Part shown: positions 2,980-19,058 of the stretch, one piece after another
How the letters are laid out: each line of letters begins with the position of its first letter
How positions within the stretch are numbered: position 1 is the first letter of the stretch
From: an uncultured Bacteroidia bacterium
GTDB lineage: Bacteria; Bacteroidota; Bacteroidia; Bacteroidales; Prolixibacteraceae
Assembly (NCBI GenBank): GCA_903923905.1
Contig: CAIXZH010000093.1
Span: 62,001-126,000, forward strand
Direction of reading: 5' to 3'
Length of the DNA stretch: 64,000 nucleotides
Position numbers and translations under genes: made by a program
Notes under the pieces: model-generated
Seen by the model: only the letters and a program-made list of their open reading frames with translations
Database searches by the model: none
What the model was told of the DNA's origin: nothing

Positions 2980-3972
2980 TTAGTTGAGTTGATTCAGTTT
3001 CCAGAGGTTTCTATAGTTCATTCGGATCAATGGGGCAAGGGCCAGCTCCCCAATTTTCCCGATTTGTTTCCGCAATTGAGTAAGTTCTGTTAGTTTGAGT
3101 TGGAGATCGTCTTCCACAATTATCGGGAATTCGTTCTCCTTAAGCATAAGATTACGTTTTGCTTTGATAGAGAGCTCAAGGTAAAGGTCTATATAGCAAT
3201 ACATATCAAAAATGGTCTCGGATGTAAACTGCTCTTTCAGTGATTTGAGATATTTGCCAGCTTTAGTGGAGCCAAAATCCCCTTTGCGGATCATGTTCAA
3301 TATCTCAACCTCGCTGTTAAATTCGATTTCGAGCCACTTTTGAAGCTTTGCATTACTGAGGCTGAAAACCAATACAAACGCGAAAGGCAACAACAATAAA
3401 ATTAATAAGGTTTGTAATACTGGGTTGAAGGGAAAATGATTGAATCCGGAATGAAACAGAATCGCTAAAAGCAGACCCGGTAGAAAGGCCAATATTCTGT
3501 TTTCGGATCTGCTGATCGCTCCGACAAACAAAATTGCAAAAAAAGAAGTGCACCCACCATGCATAACAGCTGTTCCAACCCCCCTTATGATCCAGGTCAG
3601 TAGATTATATTCAGGTGGTGATTGGAACAGGTAGTAGATATTTTCCAGCACTGAAAATCCGGCTCCGATGGCAAAACCGTATATTGCTCCATCAATAATA
3701 AACCCAATTTTCTTCTTTGAAATGAGGTAAAAAATGAAAGTGGCTTTCAGGCACTCTTCAATCACTGGTGCCATATAACGTGAATAAAAACTAAAATCTA
3801 ATTCAATCAAATTTTGAATAGATTTATTCAGAAAAAATCCACAAGTCGCACAGGCTACTCCCCAAAACAAACATAATACTAACGTCTTAACCCGAACCAG
3901 ATTAAAACTGTCGAGCAGAAATAGAAATGTAAGAAGAAGAATTACCGGTACAAAACTGAATATGATATTCAT
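2980..3972 (-). CDS. PrsW-family intramembrane metalloprotease
   Basis: The 330-residue protein has about seven hydrophobic segments in residues 1-205 and a soluble helical tail after about 210. The PrsW signatures are present in order: EE at 72-73 followed by K76 (EECLKA), FSVLEN ending at E110-N111, H138 (MHGG) and H174 (FHSGFNH). In Bacillus, PrsW makes the site-1 cut in the anti-sigma factor RsiW, so a protease of this family beside an anti-sigma kinase and STAS genes fits a transduction role. No RsiW-like membrane anti-sigma factor is visible, and the real substrate is unknown; the single-pass protein encoded next to it is one candidate. Confidence 0.85.
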   Translation of the reverse strand: MNIIFSFVPVILLLTFLFLLDSFNLVRVKTLVLCLFWGVACATCGFFLNKSIQNLIELDFSFYSRYMAPVIEECLKATFIFYLISKKKIGFIIDGAIYGFAIGAGFSVLENIYYLFQSPPEYNLLTWIIRGVGTAVMHGGCTSFFAILFVGAISRSENRILAFLPGLLLAILFHSGFNHFPFNPVLQTLLILLLLPFAFVLVFSLSNAKLQKWLEIEFNSEVEILNMIRKGDFGSTKAGKYLKSLKEQFTSETIFDMYCYIDLYLELSIKAKRNLMLKENEFPIIVEDDLQLKLTELTQLRKQIGKIGELALAPLIRMNYRNLWKLNQLN

Positions 3973-4071: not shown

Positions 4072-4401
4072 TTACCCATTCATCGCCGCTTCTGTATCTG
4101 CGAATAGTGAGAAGATGGAAGAAAAGCCCGAAATATCAAATATTTCCTTAATTCCAGGTTGCAGACTGCAAAGCCTGAACTGCCCTTTTAACAACATTAA
4201 TTTTTTCTGAATAACCAGAAAAACCCTTAATCCTGAGCTGCTAATGTAATTCAATCCTGAGCAGTCCAGGATAATTTTGGTACCTCCTCCCTCAATTACC
4301 TCCAACATTGATTTCTCCAGTTCGCTGGCATTGGTAGTGTCGACGCGTCCATCTACACAAACTACGGTGTAATCTGCTGATGTTGAAACTTGTACATTCA
4401 T
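4072..4401 (-). CDS. STAS-domain anti-sigma factor antagonist (SpoIIAA/RsbV-like)
   Basis: This is a single STAS domain of 109 residues, the usual length for SpoIIAA/RsbV proteins. The LDCSGLNYISSSGLR segment (46-59) matches the conserved loop, and S55 aligns with the serine phosphorylated in SpoIIAA. The family works by partner switching: the unphosphorylated form binds the cognate RsbW-like kinase and frees its other partner. The gene overlaps the RsbW-like gene by four bases (ATGA at 4398-4401), which indicates translational coupling and a dedicated kinase/antagonist pair. Confidence 0.95.
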   Translation of the reverse strand: MNVQVSTSADYTVVCVDGRVDTTNASELEKSMLEVIEGGGTKIILDCSGLNYISSSGLRVFLVIQKKLMLLKGQFRLCSLQPGIKEIFDISGFSSIFSLFADTEAAMNG

Positions 4402-4814
4402 GGTTTCATATTTTTTGTGAGAATTAAATAATTTTTATTTGATTTGCGTTCATATTCAACTTTGTCCATGATCTTTTTAATCAGGAATATACCCAATCCT
4501 CCTACAGGTCTCTCTTCTACAGACAAGGTGGTATCAGGATCTGCCCTTAAGGTCGGGTCATAAGGTTGCCCATCGTCAATAAGGGAAATGGCTAGTTGAT
4601 CACCTTCCATTTTAAAATTTATTTCTATGCGGTGTTGATTTTTATCGTCATATCCGTATAGGATGATGTTGGACAACGCCTCTTCCAAAACCAGATTTAA
4701 AGATAATACCTGCGGTATACCTAGTCCCAATTCCTCACCTAATTCGTCCAGGAAAGCCGCAACCCTCTCCAATTCACTCATTTGATTGTCTACTATTAGC
4801 GTTTTGAATTTCAT
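4398..4814 (-). CDS. RsbW/SpoIIAB-like anti-sigma serine kinase (GHKL ATPase)
   Basis: The 138-residue protein is a lone HATPase_c_2 domain. It shows the N box (LVLEEALSNI, E45 and N49), a G1-type box (SLIDDGQPYDP, D80/D81) and a G2-type box (VGGLGIFLIKK, 104-114). Such kinases phosphorylate STAS antagonists on serine and hold a sigma factor or another partner. Immediately downstream and overlapping is its likely substrate, the 109-residue STAS protein. No sigma factor gene lies nearby, so the output partner is unknown; in Bacteroidota similar modules may act on something other than sigma-B. Confidence 0.93.
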   Translation of the reverse strand: MKFKTLIVDNQMSELERVAAFLDELGEELGLGIPQVLSLNLVLEEALSNIILYGYDDKNQHRIEINFKMEGDQLAISLIDDGQPYDPTLRADPDTTLSVEERPVGGLGIFLIKKIMDKVEYERKSNKNYLILTKNMKP

Positions 4815-5758: not shown

Positions 5759-6115
5759 CTAATGCTCAGTGTCAGATTTTATATATTTTGCCCAGTTGTT
5801 CAGAAGCCACCCTGTGCGTTCTAATAGTGCGGGAATAAAGAGCAGGGCAGCTACATCCTCCTGATTAAGATTGTGGTGCTTAGAAAAATAAAATTTTCCG
5901 GTTTTCTCCATTAAAGACCCTTTACCACCAGTTGTTTTCTGCAGTAATTCAATTTCGGATTGACCTTTTGGTTTTGTTGTTTCAACTGCAATAATAAAAT
6001 TTAATAGCCCATTCCGGTGACCATAGTGGCAATATTCTCCAATGAATTCATGATGATCGGTTAGAATTGGAATGCAATATATTTTTTAAAATTGGAATAA
6101 ATAATGCAATTTCAT
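5759..6115 (-). pseudogene. Degraded gene remnant with an in-frame stop
   Basis: On the minus strand an ATG at 6113-6115 begins nine codons that end in TAA at 6086-6088. The same frame then stays open for 108 codons to TAG at 5759-5761. The downstream peptide has protein-like composition, for example HHEFIGEYCHYGHRNG, KTTGGKGS and LLFIPALLERTGWLLNNW. I do not recognise the family. One internal ATG gives only about 47 codons. A point-nonsense mutation in a small gene, or the tail of a larger truncated gene, both explain it. It lies just downstream of the STAS-kinase fusion gene. Confidence 0.5.
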
Positions 6116-6171: not shown

Positions 6172-8427
6172 CTAAAATACCTGATAATCAGTCCTTATTA
6201 TATTTTCACATAACTGTCCGGCAACGATCATCGAAAGGCGCTTGTGGGCAATTGGGGTGGAACTATAACAAACAATTGGTAGGATCCACTCGAGTAAAGC
6301 CAGACAATATGGAACCGGATTGGGATGTCCCTTAACTCCGTTTAAGGCATATCCTCTCATCTTCAGTGTTAAGGAGATATTTCTGTGGACTTTATCCTGA
6401 TGCTTTCCCTGATAATTATTCACCGGTGGCTTATTGAGCTGGACAGAATTATAAAAGCTGGAAATAAACCGGATATATTCTTCCATTTCCTGGTCGGTTT
6501 CCAATGGTGCATGCTCAATCATGAAGATCGCCTCAAGCCTGGCAAAATCAGACACCAGCGAGCGTGGCCTGGTTTCCGAGAAATCGATCAGATATACATT
6601 CATATCCTGGTCAAGCAGGATGTTTTGCATATTCAGATCCCCATGACAAACAGAGGTATAATAATCAACAGTGGTTTCACGTCTTCTGGCAAACTCATGT
6701 TTAAGGAACCAATAGGGATTTATCAGCTGTTGACCAGTCTCTTTAACGGTAAAAAACTGTTCTTCAGGTGAAACGGAGAGCTCTGATAAAGCTGTTTCAC
6801 AAAGCTGGGGAAAAAAAGTATAGGTGGGGTCATGATCGCGGTACGGGTAAATGGTATCGGCGATGGGCTGACCATACCAGGGATTCAATATTTGAACAAA
6901 TATCTTATCAAATAAATGTTCTAGCTGTTCAGTGGTCCAGCTATTAAAATAATGGGTCAGCCATTTCAATTTTGATTGTTCCCCACCGATGCCGACAAAG
7001 TTATACCTTAATGCTCCGATATTTCCGAAGAATTCTGTTCCCAATACCATAGCGCTGTTGTTTAGAATATATGGATTGGCAAATCGCCGGCAACGATCCG
7101 ATTCTCGTGAAATCATAGCGCGATCGGCTATTTTAAGTACAGTGGGCCTCAGTTTCCGTCCCTCCTTGTCAAAAGAGATTACCTGGAAGGTTTGTGCCGA
7201 ATAGCCACCATGAATCTGTTTTACAATTAACCGGGAAGCATCGGTATATAACCTGCGTGCTAAAAAAGCCTTAGCTGGTTCAAGGCGGAGTTCATCTTCA
7301 GTTTCGATCAGGATTCGCCTTTCGGAGGCAGGTTGCAGCCCTTCTGAAATGAACATCCAGGAGACCGGGCTAATTACCCTGTCGTCAGGATCAATCTTTT
7401 CTACACCGGCAATATTTTCAATGGTTAAGACTTTCTCAAGAAAGTCTGATAATGAGGCATCTACAGGAGAATCAGAAATTTCGTAAAGTACAAACCTGGC
7501 TCCCCATAATCCGGTTCCTCTGACATTATCTTTGATTGAATCTGTAATTTCTTTAAAATCAGACTGTTTTAAAGCATTGCTCAATTCCTGGTCAATCACC
7601 AGGCAAAACGAAACAGTAGGTCTGTATGTGTCAAAATTGGCGACAATTAGCGTCATCAGGTTCATTTCCCCGGATTTGAATTGCTGTATTATCGGGTAGA
7701 TTCCGCGGGTAAGTTCACCAAGAGATAATAATGCTGGTGTTTTTAACCGCACCAGGCCCGAAGGATTTCCTCCGAAAGAGAGTGCACACCTAACGAAAAT
7801 GCCTGCATTTTCAGGGTTCTGAGGCACCCTGAAATCTGGAGATAACCTTGTATCGGCAGGTATAAAACCTGTGCATCGGCTGTTGGAAATAAATAATCCC
7901 CGGGTATGTTCATTTTCATCAGATGCTTCAGCCGGAGACCCTATTCCGATCGAATAACCCAATTCGTTGTACCCTGCAATTCCCTGACTTTCCCACAGAA
8001 GAGCAGGTTGCCTCCTCCCTTCAATGGGAAATAACTCAAAAGATAGTGGCCCCGCATTCCATTTAAGTGATCTGTCAGCCAGCTGCCTGAGTCTTAAAAT
8101 TTCGGAACGGGCCTCTGCTACGCTGGCACTTACCCGAAAAATCTTAAGCATTCCGGCCATTTCAATGATTTGAAATACCTCGGGTAATAAACCGCAAAGG
8201 AACAAACTGCCGCCAGCAGCCTTCAACTTCTTTTCGGTTATTAAAAGTGTTCGGATGCCGGCGCTTGATAAATAGCTGCACTTCGAAAGGTCGATGATCA
8301 GAAAATTCTCATTTTCAAGAAACGGTTGAAGAGCCTCCTCAAATTTGCCGGTTGTTGTGGTATCAATCCGCCCTGCTGGAATCACAAGCGGTATCGTTTG
8401 GTCAGTTTGAACAGTGACGGAGATCAT
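6172..8427 (-). CDS. STAS domain - uncharacterised middle domain - APH-like kinase fusion
   Basis: The protein has 751 residues in three parts. Residues 1-112 are a STAS domain with the conserved loop LSKCSYLSSAGIR, S55 matching the phospho-acceptor. Residues about 120-365 resemble the C-terminal part of the other STAS fusion (12092-13315). Residues about 370-751 are an APH/protein-kinase-like domain: glycine-rich loop near 406-412 (HGGYSAQ), ATP lysine K432 (VLKIAD), catalytic HGDLNMQN at 595-602 and metal aspartate D615 (LIDFSET). The kinase part also resembles domains described as 'ternary complex associated domain 9' in predicted conflict or signalling systems; that link is from memory. 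It could be a kinase switched by STAS phosphorylation. Its substrate, small molecule or protein, is unknown. Confidence 0.85.
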   Translation of the reverse strand: MISVTVQTDQTIPLVIPAGRIDTTTTGKFEEALQPFLENENFLIIDLSKCSYLSSAGIRTLLITEKKLKAAGGSLFLCGLLPEVFQIIEMAGMLKIFRVSASVAEARSEILRLRQLADRSLKWNAGPLSFELFPIEGRRQPALLWESQGIAGYNELGYSIGIGSPAEASDENEHTRGLFISNSRCTGFIPADTRLSPDFRVPQNPENAGIFVRCALSFGGNPSGLVRLKTPALLSLGELTRGIYPIIQQFKSGEMNLMTLIVANFDTYRPTVSFCLVIDQELSNALKQSDFKEITDSIKDNVRGTGLWGARFVLYEISDSPVDASLSDFLEKVLTIENIAGVEKIDPDDRVISPVSWMFISEGLQPASERRILIETEDELRLEPAKAFLARRLYTDASRLIVKQIHGGYSAQTFQVISFDKEGRKLRPTVLKIADRAMISRESDRCRRFANPYILNNSAMVLGTEFFGNIGALRYNFVGIGGEQSKLKWLTHYFNSWTTEQLEHLFDKIFVQILNPWYGQPIADTIYPYRDHDPTYTFFPQLCETALSELSVSPEEQFFTVKETGQQLINPYWFLKHEFARRRETTVDYYTSVCHGDLNMQNILLDQDMNVYLIDFSETRPRSLVSDFARLEAIFMIEHAPLETDQEMEEYIRFISSFYNSVQLNKPPVNNYQGKHQDKVHRNISLTLKMRGYALNGVKGHPNPVPYCLALLEWILPIVCYSSTPIAHKRLSMIVAGQLCENIIRTDYQVF

Positions 8428-8471
8428 GATTCACTTTATTAGTCAATAACGGATTAAAGTTAGGCTTTGGT

Positions 8472-9092
8472 TTATTCCAGGAATTTCATTATCAATTTCA
8501 CACTATTATCAGGATCTATTTTGCTGGTATTGATCGAAATGTCGTATTGCCTGGCATCTGTCCATTCTTCACCGGTAAATGAATGAAAATACTGAGATCT
8601 TTCTTTATCACTTTTGACAATCATTTTCTCAGCCACTTTTTCCGTAACATTAAACAGCTTCTCAACACGTTTGATTCGAAAAGCTATATCACCGTGTAAA
8701 AATATGCTTAAATGGTTCGGATGATTCCGAAGAATATAAGAGCCACAACGTCCTACAATAACTGCTGAACGTTCTTTCGCAATATGCTTGATAATCTCTG
8801 ACTCAGCATTAAATAAAATGAGGTCAGGCGGTAAAACAATTTGAGGTGGTTTATAGGGATCCGAAAAACCAAGTTCAAATGAATGTAGGAATGATTCCCA
8901 GAATGAATTTTTCTTTTCATCAATTGATTCCAAATCTTCCTCTAATACCGAAAACTGTTTCGCAGCCCGGCTGATTATTTCACGGTCGGCATAAAAAATA
9001 TTCAGGTTTCTAGCCAGTTGCTGACCTAAATATGCCCCTCCACTCCCTAACTGGCGGCTTATTGTAATTGCAAACGGCGATGTCTGATCCAT
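8472..9092 (-). CDS. Cytidylate-kinase-like family protein
   Basis: The 206-residue protein matches the cytidylate-kinase-like family (Cytidylate_kin2). It has an N-terminal nucleotide-binding strand-loop (ITISRQLGSGG, 9-19) in place of a canonical Walker A, the segment VIVGRCGSYIL near 110, and a C-terminal lid-like stretch. Members are widely annotated as kinases, but their physiological substrate is mostly unknown and they are not the housekeeping Cmk. It lies 44 bases upstream of the STAS-kinase fusion and downstream of a substrate-binding protein gene, so it belongs to the transport and signalling cluster. Two kinase-like proteins in tandem suggest phosphorylation of an imported compound or of a signal, which is inference. 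Confidence 0.85.
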   Translation of the reverse strand: MDQTSPFAITISRQLGSGGAYLGQQLARNLNIFYADREIISRAAKQFSVLEEDLESIDEKKNSFWESFLHSFELGFSDPYKPPQIVLPPDLILFNAESEIIKHIAKERSAVIVGRCGSYILRNHPNHLSIFLHGDIAFRIKRVEKLFNVTEKVAEKMIVKSDKERSQYFHSFTGEEWTDARQYDISINTSKIDPDNSVKLIMKFLE

Positions 9093-9173
9093 AGTATTTA
9101 TCTCCTTCTAATTAAGTTTATCCAAGAAATTTATCATAGTTATCCAGCTCCTTCCAAAATCCTGACAGTTGGA

Positions 9174-10211
9174 TCAATGGATGATTGAATCTGCTCTTGC
9201 CACTAAGTCCTGTGGAAGCAACCAGTTGCCTTTCATTTGTTTCCTGACAGATTCGTTGATATACAGCTTTTCAGGCACCACATTTTTTATTTCTATACTA
9301 CTTGTCTTTAAGCCGTTAATGAGCGAAACGGCCATGCTCCCCGCTGTCTGACCAACCTCGTAATAGTTTGCGCCAAGATTGGCCATTCCCCCCTTAAAGG
9401 CATGTTTGGGATTATTGGTGAAGACCGGGATATTGAATTTTGTGGCGGCTGCGATGACCATTTCCATAACCGGTTCCACGACACTGTCTCCTCCAATCCA
9501 AATGGCTTCTACCCCTTTTGAACATACGGCAAGGGCCGCTTCGTAAACCTGTGAGACGGTTTCTACACTTACCTCAACCAGTTCAATACCAAGATCTTTG
9601 CAAATAACTCTCGCTTTTTTGATGCATGCCACCGAGCAGGCCTCACTGGTACACCAGACTACGCCAACTTTTTTCAGTTCTGGATTCATCTGGCGGGCAA
9701 TTCTGAAAATGCCTTCAACGGGCTGGAAAGTACCTATCCCAACCAAATGGGCCGGATGCAGATTTGCGGCAGGGCCGGTAATCCCAACTCCGGCAGAAAC
9801 AGGATCGGTTACGGTACAAAACACATGCAATACTTCGCCCGCTCTATTTGCATTAGCCATAACCTGTAATCCGGTTGTGCTGATAGAAACCACCATATTG
9901 AATTTTTCGCTTACAATATTCCGGGCAATTGTATTAGCTACAGCCATATCTCCTTCAGCGCAATATTTACGGATTTCGATGTGTCCGTCTGAAAAATTTT
10001 TCGAACCACCGATCTTGTCAAGTACTCCCCTTTCAGCTTCCTCAAGAGTCTGATTTGAAGTAAACCGGAAAATGGCGATTCGGGTTTTTTCGATTAGCCT
10101 GCTTTTCCCCTTCCGGTTTTGCAAATCGGAAAGAAGTAAGACGGCACTTACTGCGAAAAGGAAAAGCAGGGGGCGGAGGATCTGTTTCATTGCACTAACT
10201 ATTTTGAACAT
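9174..10211 (-). CDS. ABC transporter substrate-binding protein, TrpX/ABC_sub_bind family
   Basis: The 345-residue protein has an N-terminal hydrophobic helix (about 8-27) that runs into LLLSDLQNRKG, then a two-lobed periplasmic-binding fold of the ABC_sub_bind type. Typical segments are FTSNQTLEEAERG, FCTVTDPVSAGV, ITGPAANLHP and VGVVWCTSEACS. The ATG at 10211 has an AGG eight bases upstream, which supports this start. The family binds small ligands; in streptococci TrpX takes tryptophan, but ligands differ among members. The ATPase and permease genes are directly upstream. There is no lipobox, so it may be membrane-tethered. The N-terminal LLLSDLQNR motif recurs in the tandem binding protein of this cluster. 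Confidence 0.9.
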   Translation of the reverse strand: MFKIVSAMKQILRPLLFLFAVSAVLLLSDLQNRKGKSRLIEKTRIAIFRFTSNQTLEEAERGVLDKIGGSKNFSDGHIEIRKYCAEGDMAVANTIARNIVSEKFNMVVSISTTGLQVMANANRAGEVLHVFCTVTDPVSAGVGITGPAANLHPAHLVGIGTFQPVEGIFRIARQMNPELKKVGVVWCTSEACSVACIKKARVICKDLGIELVEVSVETVSQVYEAALAVCSKGVEAIWIGGDSVVEPVMEMVIAAATKFNIPVFTNNPKHAFKGGMANLGANYYEVGQTAGSMAVSLINGLKTSSIEIKNVVPEKLYINESVRKQMKGNWLLPQDLVARADSIIH

Positions 10212-10228
10212 TTATGAACCTTAGAAAT

Positions 10229-10287
10229 GCGGCTGGCAACTACCATCTGGCAACTAGCCGCTTGCCAGTCTCGAGCAGCCAGCTGCA
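10229..10287. repeat. Intercistronic hairpin/repeat between ATPase and binding-protein genes
   Basis: The segment holds GCGGCT (10229-10234) pairing with AGCCGC (10256-10261), and repeated CTGGCAACT-type words. Similar CTGGC/GCCAGT words recur in the spacers near 38408-38466 and 41600-41640. It may be a degenerate REP-like element that stabilises or ends part of the transcript. Confidence 0.4.
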
Positions 10288-10291
10288 AATT

Positions 10292-11116
10292 TCATACATA
10301 CTCGCGCATCAGCAATTCAGCCACTGCAGGATCGATCTGGTCTTTCCTGCGGAGTTCATCGAATAAGGCAAGCAAATCGGGCACTTTAAGCCTTTTTTTC
10401 TCTTCTCCCCTAAAGTCGTATTTGATCTCTCCCTGGTGCATCATGATAATCCGGTCGCCCAGGTTGACTGCCTGCTGCATGGAATGAGTCACCATAAGGG
10501 TAGTCAGCTTTCCTTGATTAACAATTCGTTCAGTAAGTTCAATCACCTTGGAAGCAGTTTTGGGATCGAGTGCTGCTGTATGTTCGTCGAGCAGCAACAG
10601 GTCGGGTTTAAGCCAGCTTGACATCAACAATGTAAGCGCTTGCCGTTGACCACCGGAAAGCTTCCCGATAGGTGTTTCAAGACGCTCTTCCAATCCCATG
10701 TTCAGGACTTTTACCTTGCTCTTCAGCTCACTCATTACTGATGCCGTCAATCCCCAGCCGAGACCCCGTTTCCTTCCCCGTTTGGCTGCCAGGGCGAGGT
10801 TTTCAGCAATTGACATTCCGGGGGCAGTGCCGCTGAATGGGTTCTGAAAGACCCGTCCGATCTGGCTGGCACGTTTATGCTCCGGCCATTTGGTAATTTC
10901 CTTCCCTTTGAGAATGATACTCCCTGAATCGGTCAGAAATGTTCCTGCCACCGCATTCAGAAGTGTCGATTTTCCCGAGCCATTGGTCCCCAGCACGCAC
11001 ACAAAACTCCCGTCTTCAATCGAGAGGCTAACATTCTGCAGTGACATCACCTCATTGATCGTTCCAACATTAAACGTTTTGCAAAGGTTTGATATTTCCA
11101 ACATTTTGATCAGCAT
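10292..11116 (-). CDS. ABC transporter ATP-binding protein (TrpZ-type)
   Basis: The 274-residue ATPase has Walker A GTNGSGKST (43-51), a Q-loop glutamine at 91, the signature LSGGQ (153-157), Walker B LLLLDE (173-178) and a switch histidine in VTHSM. The product should energise the permease encoded just upstream. The start could also be the ATG at 11104 (MLEISNL), which is a more usual N-terminus for this family. The gene is 29 bases from the permease gene and about 80 from the following binding-protein gene, so the three look co-transcribed. Confidence 0.95.
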   Translation of the reverse strand: MLIKMLEISNLCKTFNVGTINEVMSLQNVSLSIEDGSFVCVLGTNGSGKSTLLNAVAGTFLTDSGSIILKGKEITKWPEHKRASQIGRVFQNPFSGTAPGMSIAENLALAAKRGRKRGLGWGLTASVMSELKSKVKVLNMGLEERLETPIGKLSGGQRQALTLLMSSWLKPDLLLLDEHTAALDPKTASKVIELTERIVNQGKLTTLMVTHSMQQAVNLGDRIIMMHQGEIKYDFRGEEKKRLKVPDLLALFDELRRKDQIDPAVAELLMREYV

Positions 11117-11145
11117 TAATTTTGAAATATAATTGGCGAAAATCT

Positions 11146-12075
11146 TTACTTAACTAATCTTATCTTTTTTGTTTTATTCATAAACCCGGGTAAAACCAGT
11201 GCCAGGAATACGAAAGTAGCCGTAATCAGTTTGAGGTCGTTCGGGTTCATTCCCCAGCGCAGGGCGATGGCCACTAGTAAACGAAACAAAACTGCACCAA
11301 TCACCGCTCCCGCAATCAACAACCCCAGTTTCTTTTCGTTGATCAACGCCTCGCCGATAATCACGCTGGCAAGCCCCCAAACCATCATTCCGATTCCCAT
11401 CTGAACATCGGCAAAGCCCTGAAACTGGGCCAGCATCGAACCCGAAAGTGCTATGAATCCGTTGGATATTGCAACGCCAAAAACGATCATGACGTTCGTA
11501 TTAACCCCAAGAGCCCTGATCATCTGATCGTTGTCTCCAGTGGCCCGCATGGCAGTCCCTATATTGGTGCGGAAAAACCATAGCAGAACCAGGCTGAAAA
11601 GGACAATCATAATCAAGCAGAAAAGGAGTATCCACAAATCTTTTACAGGAACACTCCAGCCAAGAACGCTCGTAATTGCATCTTTCCCGGAAACAGCTAT
11701 TGAGAAGTGTTCTACCCAGGTGAACAAGGTTAGCTGAGACAATAACGGAACATTACTTTTCCCCATCACATGGAGATTCACTGAATATAGTGCAGTCATA
11801 ACCAATATTCCGGATAGCAATGGATTTATTTTAAACCGGGTATGGATCAGCCCTGTTGCTGCACCTGCCAATAAGCCACCCGCAAACGCCATTAAGGTAG
11901 CTGCTACGGGGTTGATGCCTGCTACAATCAGGGATGCTGTTATCGCGGCACCAAATGTAAAAGATCCCTCTGCCGTAATATCCGGAAAGTCAAATATCCT
12001 GAAACTGATAAATATGCCCAGTGCCAGCAGCGCCAGGACAAGTCCGATGGTAATTGATCCGATAAGTAGTGTCAT
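11146..12075 (-). CDS. ABC transporter permease (BPD_transp_2, TrpY-type)
   Basis: The 309-residue protein has about eight to nine hydrophobic segments and the typical start of this permease family (GLVLALLALGIFISFRIFDF), where FPDITAEGSF follows. Family segments MRATGDN, IRALGVN and VIIGEAL are present around residues 180-250. It forms the membrane channel for the importer whose ATPase is encoded 29 bases downstream. The STAS fusion gene ends 16 bases upstream of this start, so a cytosolic regulatory protein and the channel are made from the same message. Confidence 0.95.
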   Translation of the reverse strand: MTLLIGSITIGLVLALLALGIFISFRIFDFPDITAEGSFTFGAAITASLIVAGINPVAATLMAFAGGLLAGAATGLIHTRFKINPLLSGILVMTALYSVNLHVMGKSNVPLLSQLTLFTWVEHFSIAVSGKDAITSVLGWSVPVKDLWILLFCLIMIVLFSLVLLWFFRTNIGTAMRATGDNDQMIRALGVNTNVMIVFGVAISNGFIALSGSMLAQFQGFADVQMGIGMMVWGLASVIIGEALINEKKLGLLIAGAVIGAVLFRLLVAIALRWGMNPNDLKLITATFVFLALVLPGFMNKTKKIRLVK

Positions 12076-12091
12076 TGAACTTTAATTTTAA

Positions 12092-13315
12092 TCATTTACT
12101 AAGATTTCCGATCCAGGCAACGCCCTGCTTAAATATACTCTCCCCTATCCCGGCTATTTCGCGTGAGTCGTTTATAAGATGCAACACATCCATCACGTGG
12201 CTGGTTTCAAACAGGTGCAGCACTAGCTTGTTTGCCGATTTTTCATTCTTAGGCAGTGACTGGTATGGAAAAACAGCGGAGTGCACATGAATATATGATG
12301 TTGACCCAGGTTTATCCGGACGAAGGAAAGGACGGAGGGTCTCATCCGGATCAGTGGAGCAGATTCCCAGTGAAACAGAAAGCATTTTTGAATAAGCCGG
12401 TTCTGTGGTAAAATGAATATTCTCCCGGATTCCGGGAAATTCAAACAAAGGGTTTCTATCCACCGGCGGAGTATTCAGACTTGCCCCAACCAATCCGTCA
12501 CTCTCACCAATGACCAGAAACAGAAACTGTTTCAGTCCCGAGGAGGCTGCCAGCCCCGAAACCAACTCACTGATAGCAATGGACGAATTATCTGCTACCG
12601 GTTCGAAGATGATCCTGTTGGCAAATGCACCTTCCGCCCGGATAGCATAAAGTGCATTAATTTCGGGTTCAAGCTTCCCGGTTTTCACCATATAATCCGG
12701 GATCCTTGACTTGTCTGAGGGTTTGTAAACCAGTGCTTCCCCTATCGCCAGGAACTCTCCGTAACGGCTCCTGCAATCTTCAAATCCATTGCCGATGGCC
12801 CCTATTCCTAATCCGTACTGGCGGGATTTGAATTTAAACTTTTGGTTATCCTCAGCTGTAAAACCTGAGGTCATTGACAAAGCCGGATTGCCTGTCAGAA
12901 TTATAGTCATCAGTCCATCTGATAAAACTTCATTTTCAAAACGGTATTGACCGACTTCCAGAAAATTGGATTTCTCCTTTACAACTACAGGAGCTTCCTT
13001 TTCCCCTTCCGTGAGCATGCTGATCATTCCAACCATTTCCAAAACTTCGGCTACACCGGGAGAGAGCTCTTCAAGGACGAACAACCCTCCGATTTTTTTT
13101 AACTTTTTATGATGAACAACCAGTGTCCGTATTCCGGCAGAGCTCATGTATTGAACCCCTGACATATTCAGAATCAGGCGATGAGCTCCATCCCTGACCA
13201 GCCCATTGAGGTAATCGTCGAGATGTCCGGCCCAGCTTGCGTCCAGTCTTCCATCAAGGTAGATCCGCTGTTCCCTTCCGGGAGGATCTTTACGAATATC
13301 CAGTTTATTTTCCAT
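12092..13315 (-). CDS. STAS domain fused to an uncharacterised domain
   Basis: Residues 1-110 of the 407-residue protein form a STAS domain (MSGVQYMSSAGIR; S59 aligns with the SpoIIAA phosphoserine). Residues about 120-407 resemble the middle part of the 751-residue STAS-kinase fusion: similar spacing of a YGLGIGAIGNG-like segment, an F-V-R/R-A-EGAF region, a strand of type FLFLVIGESDG, and an alternating hydrophobic strand near SYIHVHSAVFPY. I recognise no named family for this part. It lies between the tandem binding protein gene (21 bases upstream) and the permease gene (16 bases downstream), which points to control of the importer or sensing of its state. Confidence 0.8.
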   Translation of the reverse strand: MENKLDIRKDPPGREQRIYLDGRLDASWAGHLDDYLNGLVRDGAHRLILNMSGVQYMSSAGIRTLVVHHKKLKKIGGLFVLEELSPGVAEVLEMVGMISMLTEGEKEAPVVVKEKSNFLEVGQYRFENEVLSDGLMTIILTGNPALSMTSGFTAEDNQKFKFKSRQYGLGIGAIGNGFEDCRSRYGEFLAIGEALVYKPSDKSRIPDYMVKTGKLEPEINALYAIRAEGAFANRIIFEPVADNSSIAISELVSGLAASSGLKQFLFLVIGESDGLVGASLNTPPVDRNPLFEFPGIRENIHFTTEPAYSKMLSVSLGICSTDPDETLRPFLRPDKPGSTSYIHVHSAVFPYQSLPKNEKSANKLVLHLFETSHVMDVLHLINDSREIAGIGESIFKQGVAWIGNLSK

Positions 13316-13336
13316 TTAAGCAGTGTTTTGGTATTT

Positions 13337-15274
13337 TTATTTTTCAATTTTCAACTTGGGGAAAGCCTTAAAAACAGACTCGGGAATATCGATTTTAAAT
13401 ATTCCGGCATTTTTCCGGCTAACCAGGTAGTTCGTTTTTGAGACATACCGGTAAGGAATATTGGAGGGATCTTTACCCGTTAAAACTTCGATTCCCATCT
13501 CGGCAGCCTCGTATCCGGACTGGAAATAGTCGCGGGCACAAACAGCCACAGCCCCTTGCCCCAGCAGACCAGAGACAAACCCATAGAATGGAATCTTACT
13601 TGAGAGTGAAACTTTCAGAATAGCAGAACTGCAGCTGCCGATAAGGTTATCGCTGATCTGACAAAATGCCTCTATTCTCCTGGAAACCAACTCATTGGCA
13701 GCATCTAAAACCTCTGTGACAGAATTTGCCGGAATAGCAATCAGCTCAAGCCCCGATTTTCTGGATGCCTCTTCGAGGTGGGTTTTATAGGAAACAGAAT
13801 TAATCTCACCGGGGGTAAATACGGTTCCAATCCGCCTGATTCCTGGATGAAGGAGCCTAATCATATCAATCATCCCGTCAAAGTCGCTCATGGTTGAGAT
13901 ACCGCAAATATTGGGAAGATGATCTGTAAATGATTTGCCCAGACCGGCTGCCTGCGGATCACCTACATTGGTAAAAACAATTTTGTACCCGGGCAATTTC
14001 TTCACCAGCATCTGTGCTGTTGGGGTTGAGGCACTAAAAACAAGATCCCAGGTTTGACTGCCGATCGATCCGGCAATGCTGTTCAGCGTGGCAATATCCC
14101 CCTGGGCATTATATACTTTCATGGCAAAATCGGTCCCTTCCCTGAGTTTATGATCCTCAAGTGCTTTGCGTAATCCGCTTTCGCAATCTTCAGACATCGG
14201 GCTATCGGCAAAATGAACAAATGCAAATTTGTATTTTTTAGCTTCAGGCAAAGGAATTGATGAGGAAAGAAACTCTTTGGGGATTGTCAATCCCAGAATC
14301 CTGGCCTTCTCCATATTTATTTCGATGTTCTCATTGGCAAAATTCTCAAGGGGTATGTTGTCGGGGGAAACACCATTAAGCATTTTTGCAACCAGGTCGC
14401 CGGTATGGTAGCCTACACCATTCCAACCCGGGCCAATCGCAGCCAGGGCCCCCTTTGCAACCAGCTCCTTGTCATTTGTTACAAGGGGAATGGAGTTTTT
14501 AGTGCAAAGTCCTGCAATAACATCAAATCCTTGTGTGCAGGTGTTATCGCCTGAGATATACAACGCGTCGATCCCCTTACTCAGTATTGCCTGAGTTGCC
14601 TGAAAAATTTCAGAAGTGTTGACCACCGGCACCTCGATGAGCTCAAATCCTTTCTGCGTGGCAGCCTTACGCATCAGATTAACGACACTTCGCGAATTAG
14701 CCTCTGCATTGTTATAAATAGTACCAATCTTTTTTGTTTTGGGAATGGTTTCCAGGATAAACTGAATCGTTTTTTCGACAGGTGGAAATGAACCGATGCC
14801 GGTAATGCCTTTGGAATGATCCTTAAAGGATTTACCTGCACCTGCAGCAATGGGATCAGAACAATAGGTGAAGGCAACCTGATGTTTTCTGACAGTGTTT
14901 AATGCCGCCGTAACACAAGGTGTTGAAGTCACCAGAATTAAATCGAATGAGAGGTTGTCCATGTTCAGCAGTATCGGTGAGATGTTTCCTATCTCACCAT
15001 TGGAGTGGGATTCTGTGACCGTCAGATTCCTGCCACGCTCGAACCCCAGCTCGCCGAGGCGTTTCCATAATCCGGCAAGCAACTGGTCATGAGAGGCTTC
15101 AGGTGCAAAATAACAAAGGCCCAGCAAATATTTTTTCCCGGCTACTGCCTCAGATCCCACCTGTCCAACAGACCGTTGGATCACATTTTTCTTGTTGCGA
15201 TTCTGAAGATCAGATAAGAGTAAAATAGTTGAAACAATGATTAATGCCAGAATCCCGCGCGAAAATGATTTCAT
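13337..15274 (-). CDS. Tandem-duplicated ABC substrate-binding protein (two ABC_sub_bind domains)
   Basis: The 645-residue protein is about twice the family length. After an N-terminal hydrophobic helix ending in LLLSDLQNRNK it has two full ABC_sub_bind domains, roughly residues 48-345 and 345-640. Paired motifs include FAPEASHDQLLAGL and FADSPMSEDCESGL, TYCSDPIAAGAGKSFKDH and TNVGDPQAAGLGKSFTDH, GTIYNNAEANS and GTVFTPGEINS. The two lobes have clearly diverged, so the fusion is old and may bind two ligands or a ligand pair. It likely feeds the permease encoded downstream. The uncleaved-looking anchor would hold it at the inner membrane. Confidence 0.9.
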   Translation of the reverse strand: MKSFSRGILALIIVSTILLLSDLQNRNKKNVIQRSVGQVGSEAVAGKKYLLGLCYFAPEASHDQLLAGLWKRLGELGFERGRNLTVTESHSNGEIGNISPILLNMDNLSFDLILVTSTPCVTAALNTVRKHQVAFTYCSDPIAAGAGKSFKDHSKGITGIGSFPPVEKTIQFILETIPKTKKIGTIYNNAEANSRSVVNLMRKAATQKGFELIEVPVVNTSEIFQATQAILSKGIDALYISGDNTCTQGFDVIAGLCTKNSIPLVTNDKELVAKGALAAIGPGWNGVGYHTGDLVAKMLNGVSPDNIPLENFANENIEINMEKARILGLTIPKEFLSSSIPLPEAKKYKFAFVHFADSPMSEDCESGLRKALEDHKLREGTDFAMKVYNAQGDIATLNSIAGSIGSQTWDLVFSASTPTAQMLVKKLPGYKIVFTNVGDPQAAGLGKSFTDHLPNICGISTMSDFDGMIDMIRLLHPGIRRIGTVFTPGEINSVSYKTHLEEASRKSGLELIAIPANSVTEVLDAANELVSRRIEAFCQISDNLIGSCSSAILKVSLSSKIPFYGFVSGLLGQGAVAVCARDYFQSGYEAAEMGIEVLTGKDPSNIPYRYVSKTNYLVSRKNAGIFKIDIPESVFKAFPKLKIEK

Positions 15275-15353
15275 GATCGGTCATTTGAAGGTTTCAGAAC
15301 CTTGGGGTATTGTAAATTAGCTGGTGCAAGCTAACGAAATTAATAACATAAAC

Positions 15354-16307
15354 CTAATCAAAAATCCGGTTTGCCCTGCTCTTTACCTTGTCTGGTACAG
15401 TAAGACCCTGACTGGCACAAGATTTCGCGTTTATCGTTAGATCATAAGTAGTTATGGGTTCTATCCGGCTCCGCGGTGATGTTCTTCCCTTTAATATCTC
15501 AACCGCTTTAACTCCGGCCAAATAACCCCAATGATCATAATTAACACCAAGCCCAATAGCTGCCCCCTTTTCGGTTTGCATCGGGTCGGTAACAAAAAGG
15601 GGAATTCTTTGCTCTGAAGCCACTTTGGCCAAAACAGGCAAGGCCATATAAACCGTATTGTCAGCAGCAGCTACCAAGGCGTCGATTTTCTGTCCGGCAA
15701 GATATTGGGCACCCTGCAAGAGATCATTGGAACTGGTCACGGAGGTTGTTATAAGGGTGATGCCTTGCCTGGCAAATTCCTTGCTCAACACCTTTACCGA
15801 ATATTCAGCATTTGGCTCTGCATTGTTATATGGGATTCCAACACGTTTTAGATTAGGAATGCATTCAAGGAGAAGGTCAACAAACGCCTTGACATTCAGA
15901 GGATCGTAAACCCCGTAAAGATTTTCAGGGATTGTTTTCATCCCTATCTGTTCTGGACCAAATGCCACGGTAAAGACCACCGGAGCAGAACGAACGGTTT
16001 GTGCTGCCGCCACCATACACGGCGTACTGTTGGTAATAATCAGGTCTACATTTTGTGAAATCAAGGATTGTAATATCGTATTTATCATTGAGAGATCACC
16101 TTGTGCATTATTATCGAGGACTTTAATATTCTTTCCGTCAATAAAGCCCGAGTCGGCTAACGCACGAAAAACACCGGCTTTGGCAGCGTCGAGTACCGGA
16201 TCCTGAGTAATCTGAACATACCCGATGGTGATTTTCTTCTCCCCGTGCTGACACGCGACCAGGAAAGTCATTAGAAAAATAGTTAATAAAAAGTAAATAC
16301 GGTTCAT
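15354..16307 (-). CDS. ABC substrate-binding lipoprotein (ABC_sub_bind family)
   Basis: The ATG at 16305-16307 gives a 317-residue protein with a lipobox at residue 19 (FLVAC-QHG); the longer frame to 16361 would put 18 odd residues before this signal and is unlikely. The mature part is one ABC_sub_bind domain with TNSTPCMVAAAQTV, VFTVAFGPEQIG and GIPYNNAEPNAEYS. It is the first gene of the presumed importer operon. Together with the single and the tandem binding proteins, four binding domains serve one ATPase/permease pair, which is unusual. Confidence 0.9.
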   Translation of the reverse strand: MNRIYFLLTIFLMTFLVACQHGEKKITIGYVQITQDPVLDAAKAGVFRALADSGFIDGKNIKVLDNNAQGDLSMINTILQSLISQNVDLIITNSTPCMVAAAQTVRSAPVVFTVAFGPEQIGMKTIPENLYGVYDPLNVKAFVDLLLECIPNLKRVGIPYNNAEPNAEYSVKVLSKEFARQGITLITTSVTSSNDLLQGAQYLAGQKIDALVAAADNTVYMALPVLAKVASEQRIPLFVTDPMQTEKGAAIGLGVNYDHWGYLAGVKAVEILKGRTSPRSRIEPITTYDLTINAKSCASQGLTVPDKVKSRANRIFD

Positions 16308-16389
16308 TTGATTTTGGTTAAAAAGATTCAACAATACAATTAAGGGATAAGAACAATACAATGGCGAAATTATTAATGGTTTCTTTTGA

Positions 16390-16497: not shown

Positions 16498-17301
16498 TCA
16501 CTTCACCGGTACCCAAACAAGAAGCCTGAGTGGGGCTCCACTTCCCCCTTTTATTTTCATCGGTGCCGCCACAGCGTATGACCCCTTTGCAGGAACCTGT
16601 CCGAGATCAGCGACATTTTCATAGACAATAATATTATTCCCGCACAGAAAACGGTGTGTTTCAAAATACTTTGATTGTCCGTAATCGATGCTCGGGGTAT
16701 CTATTCCTACTGCTTTGATCTTTCTTTCTTTGACCAGCCACTCAGCACCTTCCGGACCCAGTCCTGGGAAATGCAGTTCTTCAACGCCGGCGATTCCCGA
16801 TTTTAAGGTTCCGGTATATTTTTCATGATCGAACCAATACTTGCCGAAACCGGTGTATAGCAATACAATGGATTGGCCAGGAATGGCTCCGTGGGCTTTT
16901 TCCCACTGAATGAAATCCCCCGGTTTGATGAGGTAATCGCGGTTTTGGGCCGACTGCTGCGAAACATCCACCACAATCACCGGTCCTGTTAGTTCATCCG
17001 GCATAATCTGTTCGACACTTCGACCAGTCCGTGAAAAATGGATTGGTGCATCGAAGTGGGTACCCCCGTGCTCTTCAGCCGAATATTTGAATGAAGAATA
17101 GAAGTAACCTTTGGAACTGACCCCATAAAAAACGGTATCGTGTTTAAAGGACACATTGGTAGGCCAATAGACAGTGCTTTCCTCAAAATTCCAGGTAAGG
17201 TCAATCCAATGCCCCGAGGCCAACACCTTGGCCTCGTTGGGTTGGGCCTGTTTACAGGAAACTAAGAAAATCAGACCTAAAATGATGATCAGGATTTTCA
17301 T
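16498..17301 (-). CDS. Cyclase-family lipoprotein (kynurenine-formamidase-like)
   Basis: The 267-residue protein has a lipobox (FLVSC, C16) and the cyclase-family metal motif HGGTHFDAPIH at 78-88. Further family segments are GDFIQWEK, VLLYTGFGKYW and the C-terminal VGIDTPSIDYG. The family hydrolyses formamides or related cyclic amides, the best known being N-formylkynurenine, with metal-bound water. Export as a lipoprotein is unusual for a formamidase and suggests a periplasmic substrate. The gene lies 101 bases downstream of the thiamine-diphosphate decarboxylase gene. A deleted paralogue sits at 25374-25571. Confidence 0.88.
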   Translation of the reverse strand: MKILIIILGLIFLVSCKQAQPNEAKVLASGHWIDLTWNFEESTVYWPTNVSFKHDTVFYGVSSKGYFYSSFKYSAEEHGGTHFDAPIHFSRTGRSVEQIMPDELTGPVIVVDVSQQSAQNRDYLIKPGDFIQWEKAHGAIPGQSIVLLYTGFGKYWFDHEKYTGTLKSGIAGVEELHFPGLGPEGAEWLVKERKIKAVGIDTPSIDYGQSKYFETHRFLCGNNIIVYENVADLGQVPAKGSYAVAAPMKIKGGSGAPLRLLVWVPVK

Positions 17302-17402
17302 TTTTCACTTAATTACTATTGCAATCGGGGTCGAGGTGGATGTTGACCGTTTTTTTCTAACACTTACCACTCCAAACCTGATTTGGCAATTTAATTATCC
17401 TC

Positions 17403-19058
17403 TTACTTAGACTTTCTGAAAGTATTTCCAAGCCGGTCAAGCCCCTCTGAACAAGTACGGTTTGGCAGGTATGCTTCGATAAGCACAAGTTTGTCTCTCT
17501 CTCTTTTAGCGGCTTTAATGGCCAGTTCCAATTCTTCTTCAGTAGTCACCCGGATACCAATTACAAAATTACTATCCCCAAATACTTCTGGCAGTTTTGA
17601 GTAATTCCACATCTGGATATCGTTATACATTCCATCCTGGTGGAGCCGTCTTTCGATCAGATAGCCATCGTTGTTGATGATTATGATTAGCGCCGGGCAA
17701 TGTTCCTTGATGAGCGTTGAAACCTCCTGGGCAGTCATCTGAAAAGCGCCATCGCCGGAAAGGACAACCGGTCGTTTTTCGGGCCGTGCCATTGCTACAC
17801 CCAGTGCAGCCGGGGTACAGAAACCGATTGAGCAATAATAGGCCTGGACAATAAAATTCTCCGCCTCTTCAATATGAAATTCAGGGGTCGCACAGAAAGC
17901 GTCGCCGGGTTCAGAGAGGAGGATCATGTTGTCGTCCAAATAATAGTTCAGACATGCGTAAAGGCGCGGTGCAGTCAGCATGCATGAAGGTTCCGGGACG
18001 AAGGGTTGCAGGGGTTGATAGGACTGGGCCGGATGGGAAGCCAGGTAAGAGCGGGGCTGAACGGCCAGGGTTAGTTCTTGGATGAAATCTCTCAGTTGCA
18101 CCTGATGGTAAAAATGGCTGCCAATGCGCACCTGGCCACCTCCGACTGTAATCATTCGCCGGTTATCGAGATTGATACTGAACAACCCTGTATCCATATC
18201 GGTCATCCAGGCTCCAAGCGACAACAGGCAGTCGGAATCCTCCACCTGATGGCGTACGGTTTCTTTGCTCCAGCCTCCCTGGTAGATTCCGGTAAATTGT
18301 GGGTGAAGCTCTGGTAATACTGATTTACTGCTGAGCATGGTTGCAAAAGGAATTTCGCTTGTTTCAATCAGCCGCAGTGCTTCGTTTCCAATCCCGAATC
18401 TCAGCAGCTCAACTCCGGCGAGTATCATTGGATTGGTCGACTCGTTGAGCAGCGTCACTGCTTCTTTGACACATTCGGCCAAACTATCCTGATTTGAGAT
18501 TAATGGTGGGGCTGTAAAAAACTCCCCGGGTGCATGACATGGAGCGTGGGTGATATCGGCAGGAAGTTCGAGATAGGCAGGAAGTTTATGGGCAATGCAA
18601 TTTCGGAGCACACGGTCAATCTCCTCAGGGGCAGTATCAGGATCTACCAGGAGGGCTGCGTCGATCGTAATCTTCTTGAAGATGTCAAACTGCAGGTAAT
18701 AATTGGAGACCAGATGATGCACCATGACTCCGGCTTCCCTTCGCCGCGCCGGCGGAGCACCGTTAATGATAATCACGGGAACATGCTCAGCATAAGCTCC
18801 TGCCACAGCATTAATAATACTAAATCCTCCCACACCATAAGTGACAACAGCAGCACCTATTCCGTTCAGACGGGCATATCCATCGGCCGCATAACCGGCA
18901 TTTAACTCGTTGCAGTTGCCTACCCAATTTATAGGGCTCTCCATAACATCATCGAGGAAATCCAGGTTATAATCTCCGGGAACCCCGAAAAGGTGCTTAA
19001 TACCAATCTCCTGCAAACGATGAAGCAGGTAGCGTGAAACGGTGTACTGGTCATTCAT
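17403..19058 (-). CDS. Thiamine-diphosphate 2-oxoacid decarboxylase (pyruvate/indolepyruvate type)
   Basis: The 551-residue enzyme has the three-domain ThDP decarboxylase layout and normal length. All catalytic positions known from Zymomonas pyruvate decarboxylase can be placed: D29 (GVPGDYN), E51 (CNELNAGYAADGYAR), H114-H115 (VHHL) and E469 (NDGYLIE). The cofactor motif GDGAFQ...NN starts at 435. It should decarboxylate a 2-oxoacid to an aldehyde; pyruvate, phenylpyruvate and indolepyruvate cannot be told apart by eye. It is followed on the same strand by the cyclase gene, so the two may share a transcript. Confidence 0.92.
   Translation of the reverse strand: MNDQYTVSRYLLHRLQEIGIKHLFGVPGDYNLDFLDDVMESPINWVGNCNELNAGYAADGYARLNGIGAAVVTYGVGGFSIINAVAGAYAEHVPVIIINGAPPARRREAGVMVHHLVSNYYLQFDIFKKITIDAALLVDPDTAPEEIDRVLRNCIAHKLPAYLELPADITHAPCHAPGEFFTAPPLISNQDSLAECVKEAVTLLNESTNPMILAGVELLRFGIGNEALRLIETSEIPFATMLSSKSVLPELHPQFTGIYQGGWSKETVRHQVEDSDCLLSLGAWMTDMDTGLFSINLDNRRMITVGGGQVRIGSHFYHQVQLRDFIQELTLAVQPRSYLASHPAQSYQPLQPFVPEPSCMLTAPRLYACLNYYLDDNMILLSEPGDAFCATPEFHIEEAENFIVQAYYCSIGFCTPAALGVAMARPEKRPVVLSGDGAFQMTAQEVSTLIKEHCPALIIIINNDGYLIERRLHQDGMYNDIQMWNYSKLPEVFGDSNFVIGIRVTTEEELELAIKAAKRERDKLVLIEAYLPNRTCSEGLDRLGNTFRKSK

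Follow-up and report, generated by a model that had tools for sequence, protein, structure and literature searches.

The subject of this report is a putative ATP-binding cassette (ABC) importer that is encoded together with a STAS-domain protein and, on the same strand, with genes of a partner-switching phospho-relay, in an uncultured Bacteroidia bacterium of the family Prolixibacteraceae (contig CAIXZH010000093.1 of assembly GCA_903923905.1, positions 62,001 to 126,000); this whole stretch of 64,000 nucleotides is called the window below. An earlier reading of its sequence alone (the sequence-only reading) had singled out a run of eight minus-strand genes separated by 16 to 81 bases, encoding substrate-binding proteins (SBPs), a permease, an ATPase, two STAS proteins and a cytidylate-kinase-like protein. 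All eight are present and co-directional, as judged from open reading frames (ORFs) and Pfam, and the gaps recomputed from their coordinates are, in transcription order, 79, 21, 16, 29, 80, 81 and 44 bases (Table 1). The limits proposed for the run, 6172-16307, proved too narrow, however, as the same-strand run continues to a gene for a SpoIIE-type phosphatase with a receiver (REC) domain. Two proteins recur throughout and are named here STX (the STAS protein of 407 amino acids, aa) and STK (the 751-aa STAS-kinase fusion). The start of SBP1, the first gene, is placed at an ATG, the longest frame opening at a TTG at 16361.

Table 1. Genes and elements of the locus in order of transcription (window positions)
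Feature	Position	Strand	Evidence
SBP1, lipoprotein binding protein, ABC_sub_bind (TrpX-like)	15354-16307	-	PF04392, 165 bits for the longer frame 15354-16361
Tandem ABC_sub_bind protein, hydrophobic N-terminal anchor, directly before STX	13337-15274	-	PF04392, two stretches, 295.5 bits
STX, 407 aa, STAS (~1-105) and C-terminal domain (~112-407)	12092-13315	-	PF01740, 52.5 bits
Permease, BPD_transp_2	11146-12075	-	PF02653, 96.7 bits
ABC ATPase, 274 aa, with C-terminal tail of 22 residues	10292-11116	-	PF00005, 96.8 bits
Coding stretch of the ATPase tail (residues 253-274) and stop; candidate STAS contact element	10292-10360	-	Tail comparison; MlaF analogy
SBP3, third ABC_sub_bind protein, N-terminal anchor	9174-10211	-	PF04392, 119.5 bits; solved relatives
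Cytidylate_kin2 protein	8472-9092	-	PF13189, 182.2 bits
STK, STAS, middle domain and TCAD9/APH-like kinase	6172-8427	-	PF19974, 131.7 bits; PF01740, 65.3 bits
Na/Pi-cotransporter gene remnant	5774-6051	-	tblastn, E 3e-19
Small STAS protein, 97 aa	5232-5525	-	PF01740, 46.2 bits
RsbW-like serine kinase (HATPase_c_2)	4398-4814	-	PF13581, 84.5 bits
Small STAS protein, 109 aa, 4-base overlap with the RsbW gene	4072-4401	-	PF01740, 74.1 bits
PrsW-type gene	2980-3972	-	
399-aa gene, no Pfam match	1717-2916	-	
REC-SpoIIE (PP2C) phosphatase	295-1482	-	PF07228, 172.9 bits; PF00072, 82.1 bits

The association of STX with the importer extends well beyond the window. A sample of 198 genomes from the order, taken evenly from a larger group, contains 65 with some match to STX, mostly to the STAS part alone, and 15 (own genome included) that encode a full-length or nearly full-length STX. 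The permease was found in 16 of the 198 at E<=1e-10: these are the same 15 genomes, with matches at E<=3e-80 and each copy beside STX, and a sixteenth (G090) with a weaker match (E 1e-29). A scan of named genomes added 29 STX loci, 27 of them bearing Bacteroidota names, 8 of which 29 were dropped as near-identical to others; with the order (14) and a phylum search of 395 genomes (3), this gave 38 distinct STX loci at a 97% identity cut, the window excluded. L096, from Bacteroidales bacterium CF (CP006772), is represented by a complete genome record. Gene order is conserved across them. An SBP gene lies just upstream of STX (gap <=191 bases) in 33 of the 37 loci with upstream DNA, and the remaining four (L058, L111, L112 and L113) have, according to Pfam, an SBP fused behind the permease; the permease is the next gene after STX in 35/35 loci with downstream DNA, and the ATPase follows it in all 34 where the contig reaches, with permease and ATPase in broken frames at one locus (L087:11241-12990). 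The divergence of STX also matches that of the permease (r=0.92 over 28 sequences, a value reached in 0/2000 Mantel permutations). STX and the TrpXYZ-like importer therefore go together in the order sampled, and the conserved pairing of STAS fusion and TrpXYZ-type importer, on which the sequence-only reading had staked its proposal beforehand, is borne out. Two STX importers, L104 and L108, lie on contigs labelled Acidobacteria and Candidatus Dependentiae, which might reflect misbinning or transfer.

The proposed phospho-acceptor of the STX STAS domain is conserved. The serines that had been described as intact in both STAS domains are S59 in STX and S55 in STK, each within an SSAGIR motif, and we take them to correspond to Ser58 of SpoIIAA. 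S58 and S59 are kept in 38/38 covered STX sequences; one locus, L061, was left out of this and the other STX residue counts because it had entered through its STAS domain and encodes a STAS-decarboxylase protein. That protein (L061:9406-11421, genome G179) is a STAS domain fused to a pyridoxal phosphate (PLP)-dependent decarboxylase (PF01740 and PF00282). In an AlphaFold2 model of STX built from 15 sequences (pLDDT 88.4, pTM 0.83), the first domain matches SpoIIAA/RsbV by Foldseek.

A further feature, absent from the sequence-only reading, is carried by the ATPase. In 33/33 STX-linked ATPases (the window and 32 of the 38 loci), the C-terminus is prolonged by 22 residues, of which the last but one is always a tyrosine; the count omits L087, in which the ATPase is in two frames, and L047, L050, L082, L090 and L109, in which the contig ends within the ATPase gene or before it. 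The 8/8 ATPases examined from loci without STX lack the tail and have 1 to 9 residues there, one of them, from L189, being no more than distantly related. In the permease tree, those of L058 and L111-L113 cluster with STX-less permeases (support 99/99; the midpoint root is for drawing only), and since these loci have both STX and the tail, the latter follows STX rather than permease lineage, although few independent changes are involved. The obvious point of comparison is MlaF, the ATPase of the MlaFEDB transporter. According to the MlaFB paper, MlaF has a C-terminal extension of ~25 residues that is unique among structurally characterised ABC ATPases and puts Tyr261, Leu265 and Leu266 at the interface with the STAS protein MlaB, the acceptor position of MlaB, Thr52, is close to the middle of this interface, and a T52E change weakens binding (PMC7367683); a T52A change, in another study, keeps the complex and abolishes ATPase activity (PMC5016091). 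By analogy, the STX-linked tail appears to resemble the MlaF extension in kind, homology of the two not being claimed.

Enzymes that could act on an STAS serine are also found near STX more often than near comparable importers. For this comparison, PP2C homologues were accepted at >=150 bits and RsbW homologues at >=70 bits. The phylum sample of 395 genomes contains 21 with a permease match at E<=1e-20, four of which (own genome, G393, G413 and G462) have STX; the other 17, together with G090, provided 18 STX-less stretches that are 5-15 kb long, compared with up to 21 kb for STX loci. PP2C or RsbW is encoded in the fetched flank of 17/38 STX loci vs 0/18 STX-less permease loci (Fisher p 4e-4) and within 7 kb of STX in 16/38 vs 0/18 (Fisher p 1e-3), and an RsbW profile adds L107 to the loci with switch genes. 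Single-sequence searches and family profiles at E<=1e-3 returned homologues of STAS, RsbW or SpoIIE domains in 0/18 STX-less stretches, where four short frames (in L179, L180, L182 and L186) matched the phosphatase query by its receiver part only and are lone REC domains. The 15 STX genomes of the order have 33 SpoIIE genes in total, 1 to 4 each, and 9 of the 15 have a SpoIIE gene no more than 12 kb from STX (a limit chosen after seeing the window data, which tells against the strength of this figure), compared with ~0.2 expected under uniform placement; G012, G023, G137 and G179 each yielded a single SpoIIE gene, located beside the importer. Partner-switching genes are thus enriched beside the STX importer. 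In L047, L048 and L049, phosphatase, kinase, STAS protein, SBP, STX, permease and ATPase form a single co-directional run (in L047, the contig ends within the ATPase gene). Eleven SpoIIE phosphatases were scanned for partner domains: 7/11 are fused to a receiver domain (window, L048, L051, L054, L058, L089 and L112) and four to Cache-HAMP (L047, L086, L087 and L091), with an NMT1-type binding protein adjoining the phosphatase in L047 and L086 and a Cache histidine kinase adjoining it in L048, L051 and L089.

Two observations on kinase domains of this type stand apart. Directly after the STX-importer ATPase of L107 (4277-5980) lies a gene whose product joins a nucleobase-type permease (PF00860) to an HATPase_c_2 domain similar to that of RsbW; the latter domain scores 27.7 bits against a cut-off of 27.4. 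In L063 (9719-11200), a gene near STK encodes a protein of 493 aa that begins with an HATPase_c_2 domain, and frames of ~500 aa with HATPase_c_2 occur in several STX genomes.

The C-terminal domain of STX, which had also gone unremarked along with its relative in STK, is predicted to have an ALDC/PTD012-like fold. Among the matches listed by Foldseek are alpha-acetolactate decarboxylases (ALDCs) at E 2.2e-6 to 3.9e-4 (E<0.001), PTD012 at 7.3e-5 and, weakly, 3htn at 9.9e-3, which presumably belong to one SCOP superfamily. Three histidines, H343, H345 and H379, are invariant in 37/37 sequences where covered and E187 and D207 in 39/39, and we infer that these residues form a metal site. The relation to ALDC was not confirmed by profile comparison, in which hhalign gave 2.1% for ALDC and 2.3% for an unrelated control, so that the proposed fold stands on the predicted structure. 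ALDC-like proteins entered this comparison as a close set of 9 and a divergent set of 8, under several hhalign settings and beside unrelated control families (five, then four), and the close set was also tested with ten column shuffles, the best of which reached 0.8%. No Pfam family matches the domain; among solved structures, the full STX profile found STAS-bearing chains only, up to E 0.1, and a single C-domain sequence nothing better than E 0.63. A degenerate PP2C was considered and rejected, as the model matches ALDC/PTD012 and hhalign to the PP2C family gave 0.6%.

STK shares this architecture in part. Its model (pLDDT 83.0) matches SpoIIAA and APH(3') by Foldseek, the matches listed comprising STAS and APH-type kinase chains with no ALDC among them, and the protein scores 131.7 bits against the TCAD9 family PF19974 (cut-off 40 bits). 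Its middle domain is related to the C-domain of STX (hhalign 96.6-98.3%), with no HxH seen in it by eye, and the kinase residues K432, E442, H595, D597, N602 and D615 are invariant in 10/10 sequences. Intact STK occurs in 7/198 genomes of the order, all with STX (hypergeometric 3e-9, kinship ignored), and the phylum sample adds two, G413 (with STX) and G458, bringing those that bear STX to 8/9; G458, with no STX at E<=1e-15, is the counter-case. The place that the sequence-only reading gave STK in the circuit is thus backed by co-occurrence, which in part supports STK belonging to the same network as STX, and not by adjacency: STK adjoins the importer in only 3/38 loci (L083-L085) and lies ~11 kb off in L051, and a fixed operon member it is not. 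In G022 (L114), STK is present in pieces only, 62-66% identical to the window STK, in a genome without STX, SpoIIE gene or RsbW-type gene over the cut-off. The companion suggestion, a role for the cytidylate-kinase-like protein, was abandoned, since no homologue at >=40 bits appeared in the flanking DNA fetched for the other 38 STX loci. That protein matches PF13189 and misses the (d)CMP kinase equivalog TIGR02173 (41.1 vs 102.1 bits).

What might such an assembly do? We lean, if only slightly, towards an ABC importer that depends on SBPs and is controlled by a partner-switching phospho-relay, with STX as the STAS subunit through which the relay acts. STX would be a cytoplasmic regulatory subunit of the importer. 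Its STAS domain would dock on the ATPase much like MlaB on MlaF, and the 22-residue tail would lie in this contact or close to it. The RsbW-like kinase would phosphorylate Ser59 of STX and thereby break or weaken the STX-ATPase contact, and the SpoIIE-type phosphatase, on activation through its REC or Cache sensor, would dephosphorylate STX, the sense of the effect being presumed. The C-terminal domain, probably by binding a metal and a small molecule, could add a metabolite signal, and STK, with its APH-type kinase intact, may be a second client of the same switch. The complete version, in which the switch is dedicated to the importer, with STAS subunit, ATPase tail, kinase, phosphatase and sensor encoded together and a metal-binding ALDC-like domain as metabolite input, falls in our judgement a little short of an even chance. 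The original idea that serine phosphorylation of STAS proteins senses or controls uptake is strengthened by the linkage, gene order, invariant serine and enriched partner-switch genes, phosphorylation itself being something that we infer; the tail, the phosphatase gene and its sensor chain are additions to it.

Several points weigh against this reading. Neither PP2C nor RsbW is found by the bit criteria at 21 of the 38 STX loci (some of these contigs are short), and STX may not be the substrate used, because the small STAS proteins beside RsbW are also candidates. The tail could reflect lineage history, since STX-less and STX-linked ATPases largely track permease lineages, and the fold proposed for the STX C-domain comes from a predicted structure. 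Deleting the extension of Escherichia coli MlaF does not reduce MlaF-MlaB binding, even though MlaF and MlaB are lost from the assembled transporter, and the same paper gives MlaB phosphorylation as without experimental evidence (PMC7367683); because of both, the MlaFB analogy alone does not make the tail the docking site or the serine a switch.

The best surviving alternative, which we nevertheless consider rather unlikely, turns the relation around, the importer being sensor and not target: ligand occupancy would alter STX, which would compete for RsbW, with the output elsewhere (transcription or the STK kinase). Binding domains are indeed many (four at the window locus, and three ABC_sub_bind stretches fused to a single permease in L111), SBPs have N-terminal hydrophobic anchors (judged by eye) or are fused to permeases, and a second client, STK, co-occurs with STX. 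Yet several clusters bring sensors of their own on the phosphatase side, Cache-HAMP-SpoIIE with an NMT1-type SBP in L047 and L086 and a Cache histidine kinase with REC-SpoIIE in L048, L051 and L089, which therefore fit an importer that is acted upon; the presence of such separate sensors in several clusters, together with an ATPase tail that tracks STX, is why the direction from sensor to importer is favoured. Alternatively, STX might be primarily an enzyme, whose ALDC-like metal domain takes the imported compound, or a product, as its substrate while the STAS domain only positions or regulates it near the transporter. This we hold to be improbable: the predicted structural matches to acetolactate decarboxylases and PTD012 and the invariant histidines and acidic residues are what it would call for, against which stand the failed profile comparison, the blank in Pfam, the related STK middle domain without a visible HxH and the fact that 6/9 ALDCs read RSVP where STX reads FEPV (by eye, in a register that no alignment firmly supports). 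That the STAS genes are chance neighbours in the operon of a known importer is barely credible, even though STX-less TrpXYZ-like three-gene importers occur in the phylum, as it is contradicted by the 15/15 linkage in the order, the fixed position in 38 loci and the matched divergence of STX and permease.

Returning to the phospho-switched importer, its components have precedents, each of which differs in some respect. The importer has the same three families as TrpXYZ, PF04392, PF02653 and PF00005, while its binding proteins are far below the TrpX cut-off and STX and the tail are extra relative to STX-less operons. The joint encoding of a SpoIIE-type phosphatase, an HATPase_c_2 kinase and STAS proteins (window and L047-L049) recalls RsbU/RsbV/RsbW and SpoIIE/SpoIIAA/SpoIIAB, with the difference that the client proposed here is a transporter subunit. 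SulP/SLC26 proteins are secondary carriers with the STAS domain on the same chain, in contrast to the separate STAS protein encoded here with an ABC importer. That an STAS domain serves the transporter in SulP/SLC26 is also pointed out in the MlaFB paper (PMC7367683). MlaFEDB itself is similar in encoding an STAS protein with a conserved acceptor residue together with an ABC ATPase (PMC7367683, PMC5016091) and in having an ATPase extension of similar length. It differs in that MlaB is a lone minimal STAS domain of unproven phosphorylation (PMC7367683), whereas STX has a second domain; in its substrate and permease, the one here being PF02653 BPD_transp_2 (the only Pfam match up to E 0.1) and not MlaE-type; and in that a serine kinase and phosphatase are often encoded near the STX importer. 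No description of an STAS-equipped ABC importer with a partner switch was found among the papers listed by PubMed Central searches (one of them on a Vibrio stressosome), subscription journals being mostly beyond the scope of that search, and a word search of a review on STAS-only proteins (PMC8256260) did not return ABC transport, MlaB, Bacteroid, fused or permease. The name TCAD was absent, by word search, from the main text of PMC7159879.

The appeal of this system is that candidates for the kinase and the phosphatase share a gene cluster with an STAS-equipped ABC importer, whose ATPase tail is a defined element to mutate. Whether and how MlaB is phosphorylated in cells is an open question according to the MlaFB paper (PMC7367683), and a question of this type becomes testable here with a handful of purified proteins. 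If our reading is true, (i) STAS control of ABC transporters would extend from lipid transport to SBP-dependent import, (ii) the phosphoregulation suspected for STAS-ABC transporters would have a natural, genetically wired example, and (iii) a Bacteroidota importer with an extra switch protein could reveal how such pumps are turned on and off by phosphorylation.

As for the ligand, the nearest solved chains to SBP1 are 6hni, 3lkv and 3lft. The three binding proteins score 149.9, 291.7 (two stretches) and 172.2 bits against the NCBIfam TrpX equivalog NF041285 (cut-off 390 bits), and an aromatic amino acid would be a guess, made by analogy with TrpX. The second and third of them (13337-15274 and 9174-10211) have at their N-terminus, in place of a lipobox, a hydrophobic anchor and an LLLSDLQNR-like motif; in a count of SBP frames that retained near-duplicates, 19/67 have DLQNR or DLNNR, and less strict variants are seen repeatedly by eye. 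Plain SBP-permease-ATPase operons make up five of the STX-less loci (L183-L185, L187 and L188). The idea that STX-less permeases neighbour two-component systems was dropped after a partial scan, in which lone REC domains were seen (the four already mentioned); other neighbours scanned were an ABC exporter (L180), MutS (L172 and L173), radical SAM proteins (L172 and L181) and a WD40 protein (L172).

Lastly, a few neighbouring genes deserve mention. Upstream of the importer (window 16498-19058) are genes for a cyclase/arylformamidase-like lipoprotein and a thiamine diphosphate (ThDP) decarboxylase, possibly of aromatic metabolism; neither was the best match of any frame among those listed for the compared loci. 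Whole relatives of the Na/Pi-cotransporter remnant stand after STK in L083 and L084, the L083 gene belonging to PF02690, and two genomes, that of the window (2980-3972) and that of L062 (12318-13322), have a PrsW-type gene close to both STK and a small STAS gene.

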